From Candidatus Bathyarchaeota archaeon (lineage in GTDB: Archaea; Thermoproteota; Bathyarchaeia; 40CM-2-53-6), in the NCBI GenBank assembly GCA_005888735.1, contig VBBN01000036.1:1-64000 (forward strand): DNA of 64,000 nucleotides, given 5' to 3'. This document shows positions 15,547 through 52,811 of the stretch, in pieces; the first letter of the stretch is position 1, and every line of letters starts with the position of its first letter. A program made the translations under genes and the position numbers. The notes under the pieces were generated by a model that did no database searches, had not been told where the DNA came from, and was given only the letters and a program-made list of their open reading frames with translations.

Positions 15547-16881
15547 TTGTCCAGGACAGAGCTCGAAGGGTACCAAGGCCAAATCCTACACCATCTTCAG
15601 GGAGCAGGCGCGAAGGTAGGAAGCATAATCCGCGTCACGTCAAAGGACGGAGAGGTCTTCGAAGGCGCGCTCTTTCCCCGCTCCGAATACGCAGACCAAA
15701 ACCACATCTGCCTCAAGATGAAAAACGGATACAACATAGGAATCCACCTAGAAAGAGCCGAGAAGATCGAGGTCATCGGAGAAGGCGAGAAACCCCACTT
15801 CACAAAACCGAAAGTTACAACAATACACGAAGTTCTCCCGAAGGTCTCCCTAGTCAGCATAGGTGGAACAATCGCCAGCAGAGTCGACTATCGCACAGGC
15901 GCCGTTCAACCAGCACTCACCGCGGAGGACCTGACAAGTGTAGTCCCGGAACTCGGCTCAATAGCAGAGATTGATGCTCATATTCTCTACAGCGAGCTCA
16001 GCGAGAACCTGACCACAGCTCACTGGCAGAAGATAGCTGAAGAGACAGCACGGCTCATACGGGGAGGAGCGGACGGCGTGATAATCGCTCATGGAACAGA
16101 CACAATGCACTACACCTCTGCCGCCCTCAGTTTCGCCCTGCAAGACTTACCAGTCCCAGTTCTCATCGTAGGAGCACAACGTTCCTCAGACAGACCGAGT
16201 TCTGACGCCGCCTCCAACCTGACCGGTGGAGTGGCAATAGCGGCAAGAGCAGACATCGCCTCCGTGGGAGTTGCCATGCACTCCGACATGTCAGACCGTT
16301 TCATAGTTGCCCACCGAGGCACGCGGGTGCGCAAATGCCACACGAGCAGGCGTGACGCATTCAGATCGATAAACAGCCCCTTCCTTGCACGATACGACCT
16401 GCAAACAAACCAGATAGAATCATTCGATGCAGTATCTAGAAGAGATAAGAATCGGCAATTATCCTTGAAGCCTCACTTCGACCATCACGCCAACCTAGTG
16501 AGATTCTACCCAAGTTTTGATCCCGCTTTGATAGACTCCGTGGTCGCCAACGGGGCTAGGGGAATAGTTCTCGAAGGGACGGGGCTTGGGCACGTATCAA
16601 GACAGTGCTACGAGCCCATCAACAGAGCTGTGAAACAGGACGTTCCAATTTTCATGACCTCCCAGACAATCTGGGGACGCGTCGACATGAACGTCTACTC
16701 TACAGGACGCGACCTCGTCGACATTGGGGTAGTCCCGTTGGAAGACATGCTCTCAGAAACAGCACTCGTCAAGCTGATGTGGGCTCTATCGCAGACAAAG
16801 TCGCGGGACAAGATCAGAGAAACGATGCTTCACCCTGTCGCAGGCGAGGTTACTGAGCGGACACTGGCGGAGGCGTCGTAG
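15547..16881 (+). CDS. gatD: Glutamyl-tRNA(Gln) amidotransferase subunit D
   Basis: From TTG at 15547 (MSRTELEGYQGQI) the protein has 444 residues. The frame is open back to 15463, but that would overlap elp3 and adds no family sequence. GatD is the asparaginase-like subunit that frees ammonia for GatE. After an N-terminal beta domain come SIGGTIASR with the catalytic Thr, the IIAHGTDTMHYT motif with Thr-Asp, and the Lys-bearing region of family asparaginases. The gene ends in TAG at 16879-16881, and the gatE reading frame continues in the same phase straight after. Confidence 0.92.
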   Translation: MSRTELEGYQGQILHHLQGAGAKVGSIIRVTSKDGEVFEGALFPRSEYADQNHICLKMKNGYNIGIHLERAEKIEVIGEGEKPHFTKPKVTTIHEVLPKVSLVSIGGTIASRVDYRTGAVQPALTAEDLTSVVPELGSIAEIDAHILYSELSENLTTAHWQKIAEETARLIRGGADGVIIAHGTDTMHYTSAALSFALQDLPVPVLIVGAQRSSDRPSSDAASNLTGGVAIAARADIASVGVAMHSDMSDRFIVAHRGTRVRKCHTSRRDAFRSINSPFLARYDLQTNQIESFDAVSRRDKNRQLSLKPHFDHHANLVRFYPSFDPALIDSVVANGARGIVLEGTGLGHVSRQCYEPINRAVKQDVPIFMTSQTIWGRVDMNVYSTGRDLVDIGVVPLEDMLSETALVKLMWALSQTKSRDKIRETMLHPVAGEVTERTLAEAS

Positions 16882-18786
16882 TCGTCCTTCGACTATGGAG
16901 CAGTCGGCCTTAAAGCAGGTCTCGAAATCCATCGACAGCTAGACACACGGAAGAAGCTGTTCTGTGACTGTCCAACGCAGCTTTCGACTGAAGCGGCAAC
17001 TCTTAGGTTCCTCCGCAGGCTCAGGCCCACCCAGAGCGAACTGGGACAGATAGACCCGGCTGCATTGTTCGAATTCCACAAAGGAAAGAGCATCACATAC
17101 GAAGCTGACCCGGAAACGGCATGCCTTGTCGAGCTAGACGAGGAACCACCTCGCCAGCTTAACAGCGAAGCGGTCGATATCGCCTTGACGATTACACTTC
17201 TCCTCAAAGCAAGACCGCTGGACGAGATTCATGTGATGCGAAAGGTCGTGATAGACGGCTCAAACACGACAGGTTTCCAGAGGACCGCTGTCATTGGACT
17301 GGATGGTGCGCTGCGAGCTGACGGGCGGGACGTGCCGGTTGAACAGGTAACTTTGGAGGAGGACTCCGGAAGGAAAACTGGTGAGACGAAGACTTCCGCC
17401 GTCTACAGGCTTGATAGACTGGGCGTTCCACTCATCGAAATCTCAACGGGTCCAGTGATTGGGACTCCAGAAGAGGCCGGGAAGACAGCGCTCGCAATCG
17501 GCCGGATTCTCAGAGCGACGCGAAAGGTGAAGAGAGGTTTGGGCAGTATCAGACAAGACCTCAACATTTCCATCAAGCAAGGCGCTCTGGTCGAGATCAA
17601 GGGTGTCCAAGACCTCGATTTGGTCTCTAGGGTTGTAGAGCTCGAGGTTCAGCGTCAGCTCAACCTAGTTAGCATCAGAGATGAGCTCCGATTCAGGCAG
17701 GTCAAACCATTAGACATCAAGGAGGATTTTGTGGACGTCACCGGGATCTTCGCGAGTTCAGAATCGAAAATAATCCAATCCGCCATCAAGAGAGGAGGAA
17801 AAGCCTACGCGGTTCGCCTGACGGGCTTTGCGAATCTTCTCAAACGCGAGCTTGCTCCTGGAATCAGACTCGGAACTGAGCTGGCAAAGAGGGCGATTTT
17901 CTGGGGTAGAGTCGGGGGTATCTTCCATTCTGATGAACTCCCAGCTTATGGAATCGAAACGGGTACTGTCGAGGCTGTGAAGGAGAGGCTAGGGTCTGAC
18001 GCTCGAGACGCATTTGTCGTGATTGCGGATGAGGAGCAGGCTGTTCTCGACGGGCTCAGAGCCGTGGTGGAGAGAGCACGTGAAGCCGTGGAGAAGGTTC
18101 CTGAAGAAACGAGAGCTGCAAACCCTGATGGAACAACGCATTACATGCGGCCCCGTCCCGGAGCTGCGAGAATGTATCCAGAGACTGATGTCCCTCCTGT
18201 TGCGATTAGTAAGGACAGAATTGCGAGGATTGCTGGCAGTCTTCCACGAATGCCCGCTGAAGTTGCTGGTGAGTTGCAGGTGCAGCACCGGCTCAGCCCG
18301 AAGCTCGCTTCGCAGATTGTCGATTCCGAGTACTTGTCATTATTCGAAAAGATCGTGGGGGCGTCGAGGGAAGTCTCAACAAGCTATGTTGCAACCGTTC
18401 TAACAGAGTCGCTGAAGAGCCTTCAGCGTGAAAATGTCCCAGTGGAGAATTTGCGCGAGGAACACTTTGTGCAGGTCTTCGATCTTGTCGCGAAGGGATC
18501 TACTGCAAAGGAATCGGTTGTGGAGGTTCTTCGTTGGCTGGCTGCCCATCCAGCTTCAACTGCGGCTGATGCCCTGGACGACCTCGGGCTGCGCATGCTG
18601 TCCGAGCAAGACCTGGCGGTGATCGTCAACAGGGTAGTCTCCTCGAACAAGTCGCTTCTTGCCAACGACCGGGCGAAGGCTTTGGGGAAGATGATGAATC
18701 TCGTAATGGGTGAAGTTCGAGGAAGAGCCGACCCAACGCTGGTCAGCGAGCTTCTCCGAGTGAGAATAGAACGGGTGTTGGCATGA
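16882..18786 (+). CDS. gatE: Glutamyl-tRNA(Gln) amidotransferase subunit E, no canonical start codon
   Basis: GatE transfers ammonia to Glu-tRNA(Gln). Translation in this frame gives FDYGAVGLKAGLEIHRQLDT right after the gatD stop, matching the conserved N-terminus of GatE, and proceeds through DEEPP, DGSNTTGFQRT, a GatB/YqeY-like C-terminal domain and the usual length of about 634 residues. Yet from the TAG at 16879 to a TTG at 17065 there is no ATG, GTG or TTG in frame. Starting at 17065 would remove about 61 conserved residues. The start therefore may be non-canonical, the TAG may be read through to give a GatD-GatE fusion, or the sequence has an error. I use the first codon after the TAG as the left limit. 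Confidence 0.88.
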   Translation, partial: SSFDYGAVGLKAGLEIHRQLDTRKKLFCDCPTQLSTEAATLRFLRRLRPTQSELGQIDPAALFEFHKGKSITYEADPETACLVELDEEPPRQLNSEAVDIALTITLLLKARPLDEIHVMRKVVIDGSNTTGFQRTAVIGLDGALRADGRDVPVEQVTLEEDSGRKTGETKTSAVYRLDRLGVPLIEISTGPVIGTPEEAGKTALAIGRILRATRKVKRGLGSIRQDLNISIKQGALVEIKGVQDLDLVSRVVELEVQRQLNLVSIRDELRFRQVKPLDIKEDFVDVTGIFASSESKIIQSAIKRGGKAYAVRLTGFANLLKRELAPGIRLGTELAKRAIFWGRVGGIFHSDELPAYGIETGTVEAVKERLGSDARDAFVVIADEEQAVLDGLRAVVERAREAVEKVPEETRAANPDGTTHYMRPRPGAARMYPETDVPPVAISKDRIARIAGSLPRMPAEVAGELQVQHRLSPKLASQIVDSEYLSLFEKIVGASREVSTSYVATVLTESLKSLQRENVPVENLREEHFVQVFDLVAKGSTAKESVVEVLRWLAAHPASTAADALDDLGLRMLSEQDLAVIVNRVVSSNKSLLANDRAKALGKMMNLVMGEVRGRADPTLVSELLRVRIERVLA

Positions 18787-29841: not shown

Positions 29842-30914
29842 CTTCCTAACTGACAACGGCGCCTCCTTCTTTGGGGGCAAAGGTTTGCCAGTCCTTCTGT
29901 CGATCATGTCCTCGCAGGAGGGCCCCGTCCCAACGAGTGTGACGGGTACACCGGTTTCCTTCTCAATCATGGCGATGAAGTCACTTGAGTCCTTTCGGAG
30001 CTGCTTAATGTCTGAGACCCCCTTGCTCTCGGGGAAAAGCACGTCGAGTTTTGTTAGTGCTATCTGAGTAGCCCCGTTGAGCTGCACGGCCCTCATTGCA
30101 AGGTGAAAGTCGAATGGTGCGGCTCTGCGTTCGCGACCAGTGACTGTTCCGTGTTCCATCCAACCTCGTCGCACGACTTCTTCCCGGTTGAGTTGTCCTT
30201 CCAATGGTCCTTCCCCTACGCGTGTCACGTACGCTTTGAAAATGACGATTACATCATTCACTTGTGTGGGTCCTACTCCGACGTCCGCACAGGCCTGTGA
30301 GGCTGTCACATCCTTAGATGTGACGTACGGATAGGTTCCATGGTAAAGACTGAGGTACGTGCCCTGCGTTCCCTCGATCATAACATTCTTGCCCTGTGAG
30401 AGAGCATTCTGAACCTCTGCAACGGAGTCAACGGTGTAGGGCTGAAGTTTTCCGATTTGACGCGCGAGCTTTACCATTCTCAAGGCTCTTTCTGCGTTGC
30501 ATGCTCCTACACCACTTTTTGTCGAGCCTATTTTTTGCGAGAGGTGCTCTGACCTGTGCTCTTGGTCCTTGTGGCGCTCTTCTATTATCGCGCACTGGTT
30601 GTCGATTCCGATTCGTCCCTCCGACTCTGTCTGTCGAATCTCTTCGAGTAAGACGGGAACGTCGATAAGCACTCCCGGTCCGATTAGGAGGCGTGTTTGT
30701 CTGTTAACGAAGCCACTGGGGATAAGGCGTAGCGAGTATTGTTTTCCGTCGTGTAGTACGGTGTGGCCTGCGTTCGGGCCGTTTCCTCCTCTGACGCAAA
30801 TGTCGGGTTTGTCCTTCAGGGCCAGGTAGGCTGCTATCTTGCCTCTAGGGGACGATTCTCGTCGTCTTTCCCTTCGTCCCCGAAGAATCCCCCGACGATT
30901 ACGGTGCAGGGCAT
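29827..30914 (-). CDS. purA: Adenylosuccinate synthetase, reading frame broken by a 23-nt insertion
   Basis: PurA makes adenylosuccinate from IMP, Asp and GTP. Translation from ATG at 30914 gives MPCTVIVGGFFGDEGK, then the frame is lost at 30843-30865 and resumes as GKIAAYLALKDKPDI, then GGNGPNAGHTVLHDG, RLLIGPGVLIDVPV and on to the end. Removing exactly 23 bases restores the archaeal PurA of about 354 residues, including the P-loop GDEGKGK that the insertion splits. All other motifs (GTQGTYLSLYHGTYPYVTS is the long one, VVRRGWMEHGTVTGRERR) are intact. Unless the insertion is removed from the RNA, bypassed, or is an error, the gene is inactive. The purely in-frame part runs from 29827 to 30672. 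Confidence 0.9.
30843..30865 (-). other. 23-nt insertion inside the purA P-loop codons
   Basis: The boundary is ambiguous by two bases because AG is shared at both ends. The inserted piece contains TCGTCCCC, the exact complement of GGGGACGA in the upstream purA codons, so the two form an 8-bp hairpin across the junction. It also contains ACGA and TCGT as a shorter internal hairpin. The fold-back relation suggests templated insertion or an RNA structure. Confidence 0.7.
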
Positions 30915-31135
30915 TTAGTATCCAAGCCCTGATTTACCATGATTGGATAAGACTTTGGAATAGTTGGTTCGGGCAGGCGTTAGACTATGTATCAGCCCGC
31001 CCGATGTCGTTCGTCACAGCGTTGGCTGAGAACGCTCAGAGCAGCTTTCTAGCGGAAACTCATCATATAGCCTAGAGCTCGAAACGCTTCGTTAATAATC
31101 CGATGGTAGGGTCCGCATCGCAGCCGGGTTGCGCG

Positions 31136-32026
31136 CTACAGTCGAGACTTGCCGCATAGTCCACAAAAGACTCCTTCCGGGTCAATAACGCCATTACAAA
31201 ACCGGCACTTTAGGGCTTCATGCTCACGTTTCTTCTCCGGAAGGGGATGTCGCTTCTCATACCTTCTGGCGACAAGGAGGGAACCCTCCAGCAGGATAAT
31301 TATCGGAATGAACAGCGCCACATCGGCAATTGGGCCTCCATCGGGGGTAATGACCGCGGTTAGAATGTACGTGCCCACCCACACCCATACTCGCCTCTTT
31401 GTTATTCCAGAAGTCCCAATGATCTGGAACTTGACTAGGAGCACAACAAAAACAGGTAGGGTGAAAGCGAAGCCTGTGGTAAGAAGTGTGAAGAAAACTA
31501 GAGTGTAAAAGTCCTCGATGTTGACGAAAGGCGCCGCGCCTACCACGGGTAGGAAGATTAGGGTACCTATGACGATGAACGGGAGCAGGATCAAGAAACC
31601 GAAGAGAACTCCTGCAACGAAGAGGAGCGAGAAGGCCGCTGTGAATGGGTAAACGGATTGTCTCTCAGACGGCTTGAGGGCTGGGTCTACAAACCTGTAG
31701 ACCTTGAAAGCCAGTAGGGGAAGGCTGACGGCGAAGCCTAGGACCACGGAGGCGATGACGTAGAGTTCTATCGGCGCAGTGAAGCTGCCCGCGATGAGTT
31801 GAACGTTGGACGGGAGAAGTCTGTTCTTGAGTGTCAAGAGGATGACTGATACTAGTGGGTTGTAAAACGCGAGTGGATCCTTGAGGAAGGAGAGGTCGGC
31901 GGGGATGACCATGAACGCCATGCTTGCCAGGATGAAAGTGTAGACCCATGTTCGGAGAAGGTTCGCGAGTTCGATTACATGTTCCCATAGTGGGAGAACT
32001 TTCGCGTCTCCCCGGTCATCGGGCAA
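31136..32026 (-). CDS. tatC: Twin-arginine translocase TatC with a C-terminal zinc ribbon
   Basis: A 296-residue protein. Six membrane helices follow the TatC plan: a cytoplasmic N-terminus with PLWEHVIELANLLRTWVYTF, conserved Pro and Glu loops, and the middle LPFIVIGTLIFLPVVG. The core spans residues about 10-255. The last 40 residues carry CRFCNGVIDPEGVFCGLCGK, two CxxC pairs typical of a zinc ribbon, absent from ordinary TatC. The protein receives folded Tat substrates and assembles with TatA. It is the last gene of a tatA-tatA-tatC operon. Confidence 0.88.
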   Translation of the reverse strand: MPDDRGDAKVLPLWEHVIELANLLRTWVYTFILASMAFMVIPADLSFLKDPLAFYNPLVSVILLTLKNRLLPSNVQLIAGSFTAPIELYVIASVVLGFAVSLPLLAFKVYRFVDPALKPSERQSVYPFTAAFSLLFVAGVLFGFLILLPFIVIGTLIFLPVVGAAPFVNIEDFYTLVFFTLLTTGFAFTLPVFVVLLVKFQIIGTSGITKRRVWVWVGTYILTAVITPDGGPIADVALFIPIIILLEGSLLVARRYEKRHPLPEKKREHEALKCRFCNGVIDPEGVFCGLCGKSRL

Positions 32027-51506: not shown

Positions 51507-52789
51507 TTCCTCTTGAGAACTACTCCAGATCCAGGCGCAGCCACGATTTGGCCCCGTTCAAAGATGACATGTCCTCCAACGATCGTAGTGTCAACTTGCC
51601 CTTGGGTCGTCCATCCTTCGAAAGGGGAGTACTTTGCCTTGGAGAGGAACTTCTCAGGTCTCACAACAGACCGTTTGTTCGGGTCTACTAGAATAATGTC
51701 TGCATCGGTTCCATGTTCAATTCTGCCCTTGGAGTTCAGTCCAAATATTCGTGCGGGATTGCGAGCGAGACAGGCGACTATTGTTCTCAGGCTCATCACC
51801 CCTTTGCCCACTAGGCTCATGAGAAGGGGTAGCGTCGTCTCCAAGCCTGGAATTCCCGGAGGGGAGTCTCTTGGTTGGACAGCCTTCTCCTTAATCTCGT
51901 GAGGAGCGTGGTCGGAGGCGATTACGTCTGCTCGTCCTGAGACAGTCGCCTGAAGGAGTCTTCTTCGTACTGTCTCGGATCTGAGAGGCGGGACCATCCA
52001 TGCCTTCCATGTTAGGTGTTTCAGAGACTTGTTGGAGAGGAGCAGGTGGTGTGGCGTGACCTCGGCCGTCAACCCGGGGGAGGAGTGTATTCGTTGAAGA
52101 TTCGAAGCGATTGATACGTGGCAGAAGTGAATTGGAGATCCAAGCGGTTCTCGTAGTTGTCGAATTCTCTCTATCGCATGGATCTCGGCTCTTGCCGGCC
52201 GAGATTGAGCCATGTCGTAGAATGTCTGGGGGCGGACTGTTTTGAGTTCGGTTGGTTCTTCAGCGTGAACTGTTAGTGGAACGTCTTCTTCCGAAGAAGC
52301 TCGGATCAATCGTCGAAGCGTGTTGTCGTTGACATCTAGAGGAGAGATCGGTCTTGGGAGGTATAGCTTGAAGGAAAACGCTCCCATTCTAGCCATTTTC
52401 TTAATCGAGAGTCTGGCTCCGACGGCGGCGGCGTGGAAGCCGACGTTGACTAGTATCTTGTTCGAGGCGTCTTCCATTTTCGCAGCCAGCCTCGCGGGCG
52501 TGTCTGTGGGGGGGACTGTGTTTGGCATGTCTAGAACGCTGGTGAACCCGCCTGCTGCAGCGGAGGCGGTCCCGGTGGTGAAGTCTTCTTTATGGCGAAG
52601 TCCCAGTGCTCGAAGGTGTGTATGCGCGTCGATGAGCCCTGGGAGGGCTACCAGTCCCCGCCCGTCGATCCGCGACGAAGCGGGCTGTCGTATTTGGCGT
52701 CCTATCTTCCGAATCTTGCCATCTTCTAATAGAAGCGAACCTTCCCTGAGTCCAGCTTCTGTCCAGAGCTTGCAGTTTCTGACTAGAAT
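51503..52789 (-). CDS. pyrC: Dihydroorotase, no canonical start codon
   Basis: Continuous coding sequence runs from at least 52789 to the stop at 51503 and includes the N-terminal barrel LVRNCKLWTEAGLREGSLLL, GLVALPGLIDAHTHLRALG with the metal motif HTH and DxH, then CHVSIASNLQRIH, TPHHLLLS and ASDHAPHEIKEK with the catalytic Asp. Total is about 428 residues, normal for the family. The first ATG, GTG or TTG in frame is at 52528, behind the metal-binding motif and thus not the true start. An ATT at 52787-52789 stands where the initiating codon is expected (LVRNCK follows). It makes dihydroorotate from carbamoyl-aspartate. Confidence 0.9.
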   Translation of the reverse strand: MLVRNCKLWTEAGLREGSLLLEDGKIRKIGRQIRQPASSRIDGRGLVALPGLIDAHTHLRALGLRHKEDFTTGTASAAAGGFTSVLDMPNTVPPTDTPARLAAKMEDASNKILVNVGFHAAAVGARLSIKKMARMGAFSFKLYLPRPISPLDVNDNTLRRLIRASSEEDVPLTVHAEEPTELKTVRPQTFYDMAQSRPARAEIHAIERIRQLREPLGSPIHFCHVSIASNLQRIHSSPGLTAEVTPHHLLLSNKSLKHLTWKAWMVPPLRSETVRRRLLQATVSGRADVIASDHAPHEIKEKAVQPRDSPPGIPGLETTLPLLMSLVGKGVMSLRTIVACLARNPARIFGLNSKGRIEHGTDADIILVDPNKRSVVRPEKFLSKAKYSPFEGWTTQGQVDTTIVGGHVIFERGQIVAAPGSGVVLKRN

Positions 52790-52811
52790 GCTTTGGTGAT
52801 GAGGGGACGTG

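Follow-up and report, generated by a model that had tools for sequence, protein, structure and literature searches.

A pre-mRNA intron in the cbf5 gene of Crenarchaeota was reportedly described by Watanabe in 2002. The cbf5 introns of this group, 16-44 bp long, interrupt the catalytic Asp codon (PMC2738675, Yokobori 2009), and in archaeal bulge-helix-bulge (BHB) motifs each bulge is cut between its second and third bases (PMC2738675). As of 2020, cbf5 was still listed as the only other mRNA with a BHB intron besides a site in a Haloferax 5' UTR (PMC7714728). Putative archaeal virus introns of 12 bp have an in-frame length and, as they are presented in the citing paper, no demonstrated splicing (Peng et al., cited in PMC2738675). 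In the window studied here (the whole stretch of 64,000 nucleotides that was analysed), purA carries 23 nt which, judging from sequence and modelled fold, are highly likely to be a BHB pre-mRNA intron that EndA and RtcB would splice.

The purA gene is encoded on the minus strand, its ATG being at 30914, and the 23 surplus bases fall between GDEGK and GKIAAY. The frame before the break reads MPCTVIVGGFFGDEGK, runs on through DDENRPLEAR and ends at a TAG stop, so that the mRNA, if left unspliced, encodes only a 26-residue peptide; the GKIAAYLAL... frame picks up 23 nt downstream and stays open to 29827. Translation of both frames thus bore out the sequence-only reading, which had described extra bases splitting the P-loop. 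Its further claim, that excision gives an intact P-loop and a protein of normal length, also held: whichever of three equivalent registers was chosen for removing the 23 nt (30843-30865, 30844-30866 or 30845-30867), the product was the identical 354-aa protein with GDEGKGKIAAY. This joined PurA scored 505 bits against the archaeal PurA equivalog NF003295 (cut-off 368 bits) and aligned end to end with 2d7u, the junction being gap-free. The GDEGKGK loop of PurA contains the catalytic Asp and binds the substrate phosphates, hence the unspliced product cannot be active. Exon 2 alone, starting at GTG 30672, was considered as a gene and rejected, as it is without the P-loop. A search for a second intact purA found no other PF00709 gene in the genome (93% complete), and the interrupted purA is the sole copy found. 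The features of the locus are collected in Table 1.

Table 1. Coordinates of the purA exons, the putative intron and the predicted RNA elements in the window.
Feature	Position	Strand	Basis or remark
purA exon 1 (codons 1-15 plus two bases of codon 16, which encodes the Lys of GDEGK)	30868..30914	-	translation
Putative 23-nt intron, by BHB cut sites	30845..30867	-	same sequence as 30843-30865; removal gives GGG AA/A GGC AAG
purA exon 2, through stop codon	29827..30844	-	translation, profile match, 2d7u alignment
Predicted spliced junction, GGGGACGAAGGGAA joined to AGGCAAGATAGC			
Outer exon-exon helix, 5' strand UUCUUCGGGG	30878..30887	-	predicted in 6/6 sequences; one pair C-G to U-A
Central 4-bp helix, 5' strand AGGG (exon 1)	30870..30873	-	minimum-energy fold; pair probabilities 0.83-0.91
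Bulge 1, AAA	30867..30869	-	fold; 5' splice cut predicted at AA^A (30868/30867)
Inner helix, 5' strand GACGA (intron)	30862..30866	-	unchanged in every intron-bearing copy
Hypervariable 6-nt hairpin loop CGAGAA	30856..30861	-	1/6 positions shared by the four species compared
Inner helix, 3' strand UCGUC (intron)	30851..30855	-	invariant among intron-bearing copies
Central helix, 3' strand CCCU (intron)	30847..30850	-	comparison of intron-bearing copies
Bulge 2, AGA	30844..30846	-	geometry; 3' splice cut predicted at AG^A (30845/30844)
Hairpin of exon 2, AGGC...GCCU, lying between the core and the outer helix	30828..30844	-	predicted in 6/6 sequences
Outer exon-exon helix, 3' strand CCCUGAAGGA	30812..30821	-	predicted in 6/6 distinct sequences

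A protein search of 61 relatives, followed by reading of the DNA, showed that in four other genomes of the family (G005, G006, G007 and G011) and on a short contig of the G012 bin, purA is interrupted by this insert at an identical codon, all these purA copies being split at the protein level at exactly residue 16. The same split purA sequences are present in soil MAGs labelled Candidatus Bathyarchaeota, an archaeon 13_2_20CM bin and a Centralia soil bin, and the insert-bearing copies come from different, independent soil assemblies. Their DNA has in common the element GGGAAA-GACGA-NNNNNN-TCGTC-CCCTAGAGGC, for which a pattern search returned one match per genome, in purA only, apart from a match with 3 mismatches in G013 that falls in a peptide-transporter region and was discarded as unrelated. 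Among the roughly 150 matches listed for 232 genomes of the class, no further purA was split at residue 16 (nine odd cases were inspected), and a search for a viral copy of the insert found none.

Some of the bins showed peculiarities of their own. That of G012 holds both an intronless purA (contig C137, L006) and the intron-bearing one (contig C48, L048, the same purA region as L038); since the rpoB of G012 groups with the intronless clade, the intron-bearing contig is probably a binning error, foreign to the bin. In G005 (L044, C56 at about 144062), the purA lacks 118 nt relative to L015 in addition to carrying the intron; this deletion disrupts the frame near codon 257 and may be an assembly collapse or real decay. 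At G101:C10:7875-8836, purA is broken by a deletion and not by an insertion, some 18 residues being absent between its two frames, and at G081:C97:1894-4510 two complete purA-like genes stand in tandem with a third fragment.

In the rpoB tree, the intron-bearing members of genus g2 formed one clade (99/99) and the intronless members another (100/100), with G000 on its own branch, and the purA tree showed the same clades. The relatives also share the purA neighbourhood, with cofC, cofD and a membrane protein gene convergent to purA. The matching clades and the shared neighbourhood therefore indicate that the insert is old and mainly vertically inherited.

We have compared the insert and its flanks in four diverged species. 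The non-loop bases were identical at 17 of 17 positions and the loop bases at 1 of 6; any two species differed at 0/17 non-loop and 2-5/6 loop positions. Over purA as a whole, 5 of 101 four-fold sites were identical in all four species. Synonymous conservation was concentrated around the insert, with 19/24 degenerate codons frozen in codons 6-30 of intron-bearing purA vs 25/191 elsewhere (Fisher p=4e-11), and codons 2-16 of exon 1 showed 0-1 amino-acid change per species pair. For the intronless relatives the corresponding counts were 5/22 and 26/227, a difference that was not significant (p=0.17). The frozen non-loop bases and synonymous sites thus indicate that the insert and its flanks are constrained as RNA or DNA, the loop being unconstrained.

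The same core fold was the minimum-energy structure in all six distinct sequences and comprised AGGG/CCCU, bulge AAA, the GACGA/UCGUC stem and AGA, with core pair probabilities of 0.78-1.0 in the four sequences tested. It places two 3-nt bulges on opposite strands around a central 4-bp helix (AGGG/CCCU), that is, a BHB core. Cuts between bulge bases 2 and 3 would excise A-GACGA-N6-UCGUC-CCCU-AG, exactly 23 nt, and join GGGAA to AGGCAAG; of 500,000 random 23-nt inserts at the same place, only 227 gave the core in register. The inner helix has 5 bp and no helix stands directly under the second bulge. The outer helix (consensus UUCUUYGGGG with CCCURAAGGA) runs from exon to exon and is reached only via a three-way junction with the exon 2 hairpin, and the motif therefore appears not to be a strict textbook hBHBh'. 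Covariation was limited to one outer-helix pair (C-G to U-A), a count not above that of shuffles with six sequences and invariant core pairs, so that the case rests on geometry and conservation and not on covariation. The sequence-only reading had noted that part of the insert is complementary to the preceding codons and had folded the junction as a hairpin. The complementarity between TCGTCCCC and GGGGACGA is real, but the 8-bp hairpin did not emerge as the dominant fold: it is predicted to be a minor alternative, 3.6-6.1 kcal/mol less stable than the BHB fold and with a pair probability of at most 0.005.

The genes for the corresponding enzymes were also present. PF01974 proteins were found in 41 of the 41 relatives searched, usually two per genome, and G000 has two EndA paralogues, as in the two-subunit tRNA-splicing endonuclease of the Aeropyrum type. 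The catalytic EndA of G000 (L088) matched 3p1z, the Aeropyrum pernix EndA (5e-42), and retains the sequence surrounding the catalytic Tyr, His and Lys. It has K-P-K at the place of the Aeropyrum loop K44-P45-R46, a loop that has been tied to relaxed substrate use (PMC12397907). As for the structural subunit, the G006 sequence matched EndA families and its G000 counterpart was located at C7:8203-8442. The RtcB ligase gene is present in the genome. In G008 and G009, the RtcB profile match is split inside one 1006-aa open frame (G008:C2:17455-20262 and G009:C11:125223-128030), suggestive of an intein. The tRNA genes found in G000 number 18, most of them 92-146 nt long; ARAGORN places introns in many, and several loci among L097-L112 were recognised as tRNAs only with introns allowed. 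The length of most of these genes and the need to allow introns for several indicate that tRNA introns are frequent in G000.

We have also looked for other interrupted genes. An ORF-by-ORF comparison detected no other 23-nt-like break in about 200 kb around purA (G001, G005), in 108 kb of G011 or in the window, and yielded one weak 26-nt case with 54% identity. The cbf5/TruB gene of G000 is uninterrupted. Two genes of the window that appeared truncated, gatE (16877-17064) and pyrC (52529-52811), were rejected as candidates, both being intact with unusual starts. Their frames extend upstream of the first in-frame ATG/GTG/TTG, and the ORF lists thus clip their N-termini.

A pathway can be proposed in which exon 1 AGGG of the purA transcript would pair with CCCU at the intron 3' end, and the intron would close on itself as GACGA-N6-UCGUC, leaving the two 3-nt bulges (AAA and AGA). 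The two-subunit tRNA-splicing endonuclease would then cleave both bulges between their second and third bases, freeing 23 nt, and RtcB would ligate the exons within codon 16, restoring the P-loop GDEGKGK. We infer the transcription, RNA cutting and ligation of purA from the insert, conservation, fold geometry and enzyme genes observed. Among the explanations that the sequence-only reading had put forward, that of a very short intron-like element excised at the RNA level draws strong support from the conserved insert, the canonical cut geometry, the synonymous constraint on the flanking exons and the presence of the enzymes. The frozen synonymous sites of both exons and a competing 8-bp fold, in which exon GGGGACGA pairs with intron UCGUCCCC, raise the idea that splicing is a regulated control point for AMP synthesis, with competing folds switching the pre-mRNA between spliceable and unspliceable forms, which we regard as unlikely.

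Under programmed ribosomal bypassing, with the hairpin aiding a hop of 23 nt downstream from the Lys codon, conservation of both the frame break and a hairpin within the gap would be expected too. However, the triplet 23 nt past AAA is AGA, leaving the take-off and landing codons unmatched, and no stop codon directly follows the take-off site. The BHB geometry and the exact cut positions would also be left unexplained. We know of no bypassing in archaeal genes and judge such a programmed event to be very improbable here. The displaced outer helix and the not strictly canonical motif could point to excision by a nuclease and a ligase other than EndA and RtcB, but the predicted cuts match EndA geometry exactly, and this genome has an EndA of the crenarchaeal type, which accepts relaxed motifs (PMC12397907, PMC2738675); only a slim chance, slighter still, can be given to another pair of enzymes. 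A self-splicing group I or II intron was dismissed, as its catalytic core needs well over 100 nt and the insert has 23, and the region 30400-31200 gave no Rfam match.

A decaying pseudogene, with its function lost or taken over by another gene, would be in keeping with a reading frame broken at the DNA level. Against this, each of the two exons translates as intact PurA, in the window as well as in four other copies, 17 intron bases are frozen and the genome yielded no other purA, which makes decay extremely improbable and agrees with the earlier opinion that an essential purine gene should not be dead. The sequence-only reading had further listed an assembly artefact and a fold-back templated mutation, and the 8-nt inverted repeat GGGGACGA/TCGTCCCC does look like a templated insertion. 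Nevertheless, the insert was found in independent assemblies and in several species, with differing loop sequences. Because the copies are conserved across independent assemblies, an assembly or amplification artefact and a one-off fold-back mutation are excluded, their probability being negligible. A fold-back event could be the ancient origin of the purA intron.

Our literature search on introns in purA, adenylosuccinate synthetase or Bathyarchaeota, which covered mostly papers outside subscription, found nothing relevant. Taken with the modelled fold, the sequence comparison suggests that purA is very probably a second archaeal gene with a BHB intron inside the reading frame, besides cbf5, the only one reported in the literature covered. 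Such an intron in a further gene, at a different active-site codon and in a distant, uncultivated lineage from soil, suggests that mRNA splicing of the tRNA type is wider than thought and overlooked in archaea with heteromeric endonucleases, and that gene callers truncate such intron-split genes. Presence and absence in sister clades, together with the freely varying loop, make gain, loss and structural need directly testable.

The bypass element of T4 gene 60 resembles the purA insert as a short, hairpin-bearing gap in a reading frame; it requires matched take-off and landing codons, unlike the purA insert, which is without them. The tRNA-splicing endonuclease of Haloferax is homomeric. The BHB site of Haloferax HVO_1309 is an mRNA substrate of EndA, as proposed for purA, but it lies in the 5' UTR and leaves the reading frame uninterrupted, whereas the purA insert breaks the frame (PMC7714728). 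The putative archaeal virus introns, as far as the citing paper describes them, share with purA the tiny size of the insert and the location in archaeal protein genes. Archaeal tRNA introns, abundant in this genome, have the same motif and presumably use the same enzymes; the purA insert differs from them in being in a protein-coding mRNA with no tRNA fold. Compared with the cbf5 intron, the gene is another one (purA), the hosts are soil MAGs labelled Bathyarchaeota, a three-way junction replaces the outer helix and splicing is what we infer. The two have in common the short length (23 nt in purA vs 16-44 bp), the BHB-like fold with cuts between bulge bases 2 and 3 (predicted for purA), the position within the codon of an active-site residue, the clade-specific presence or absence and the crenarchaeal-type heteromeric EndA.
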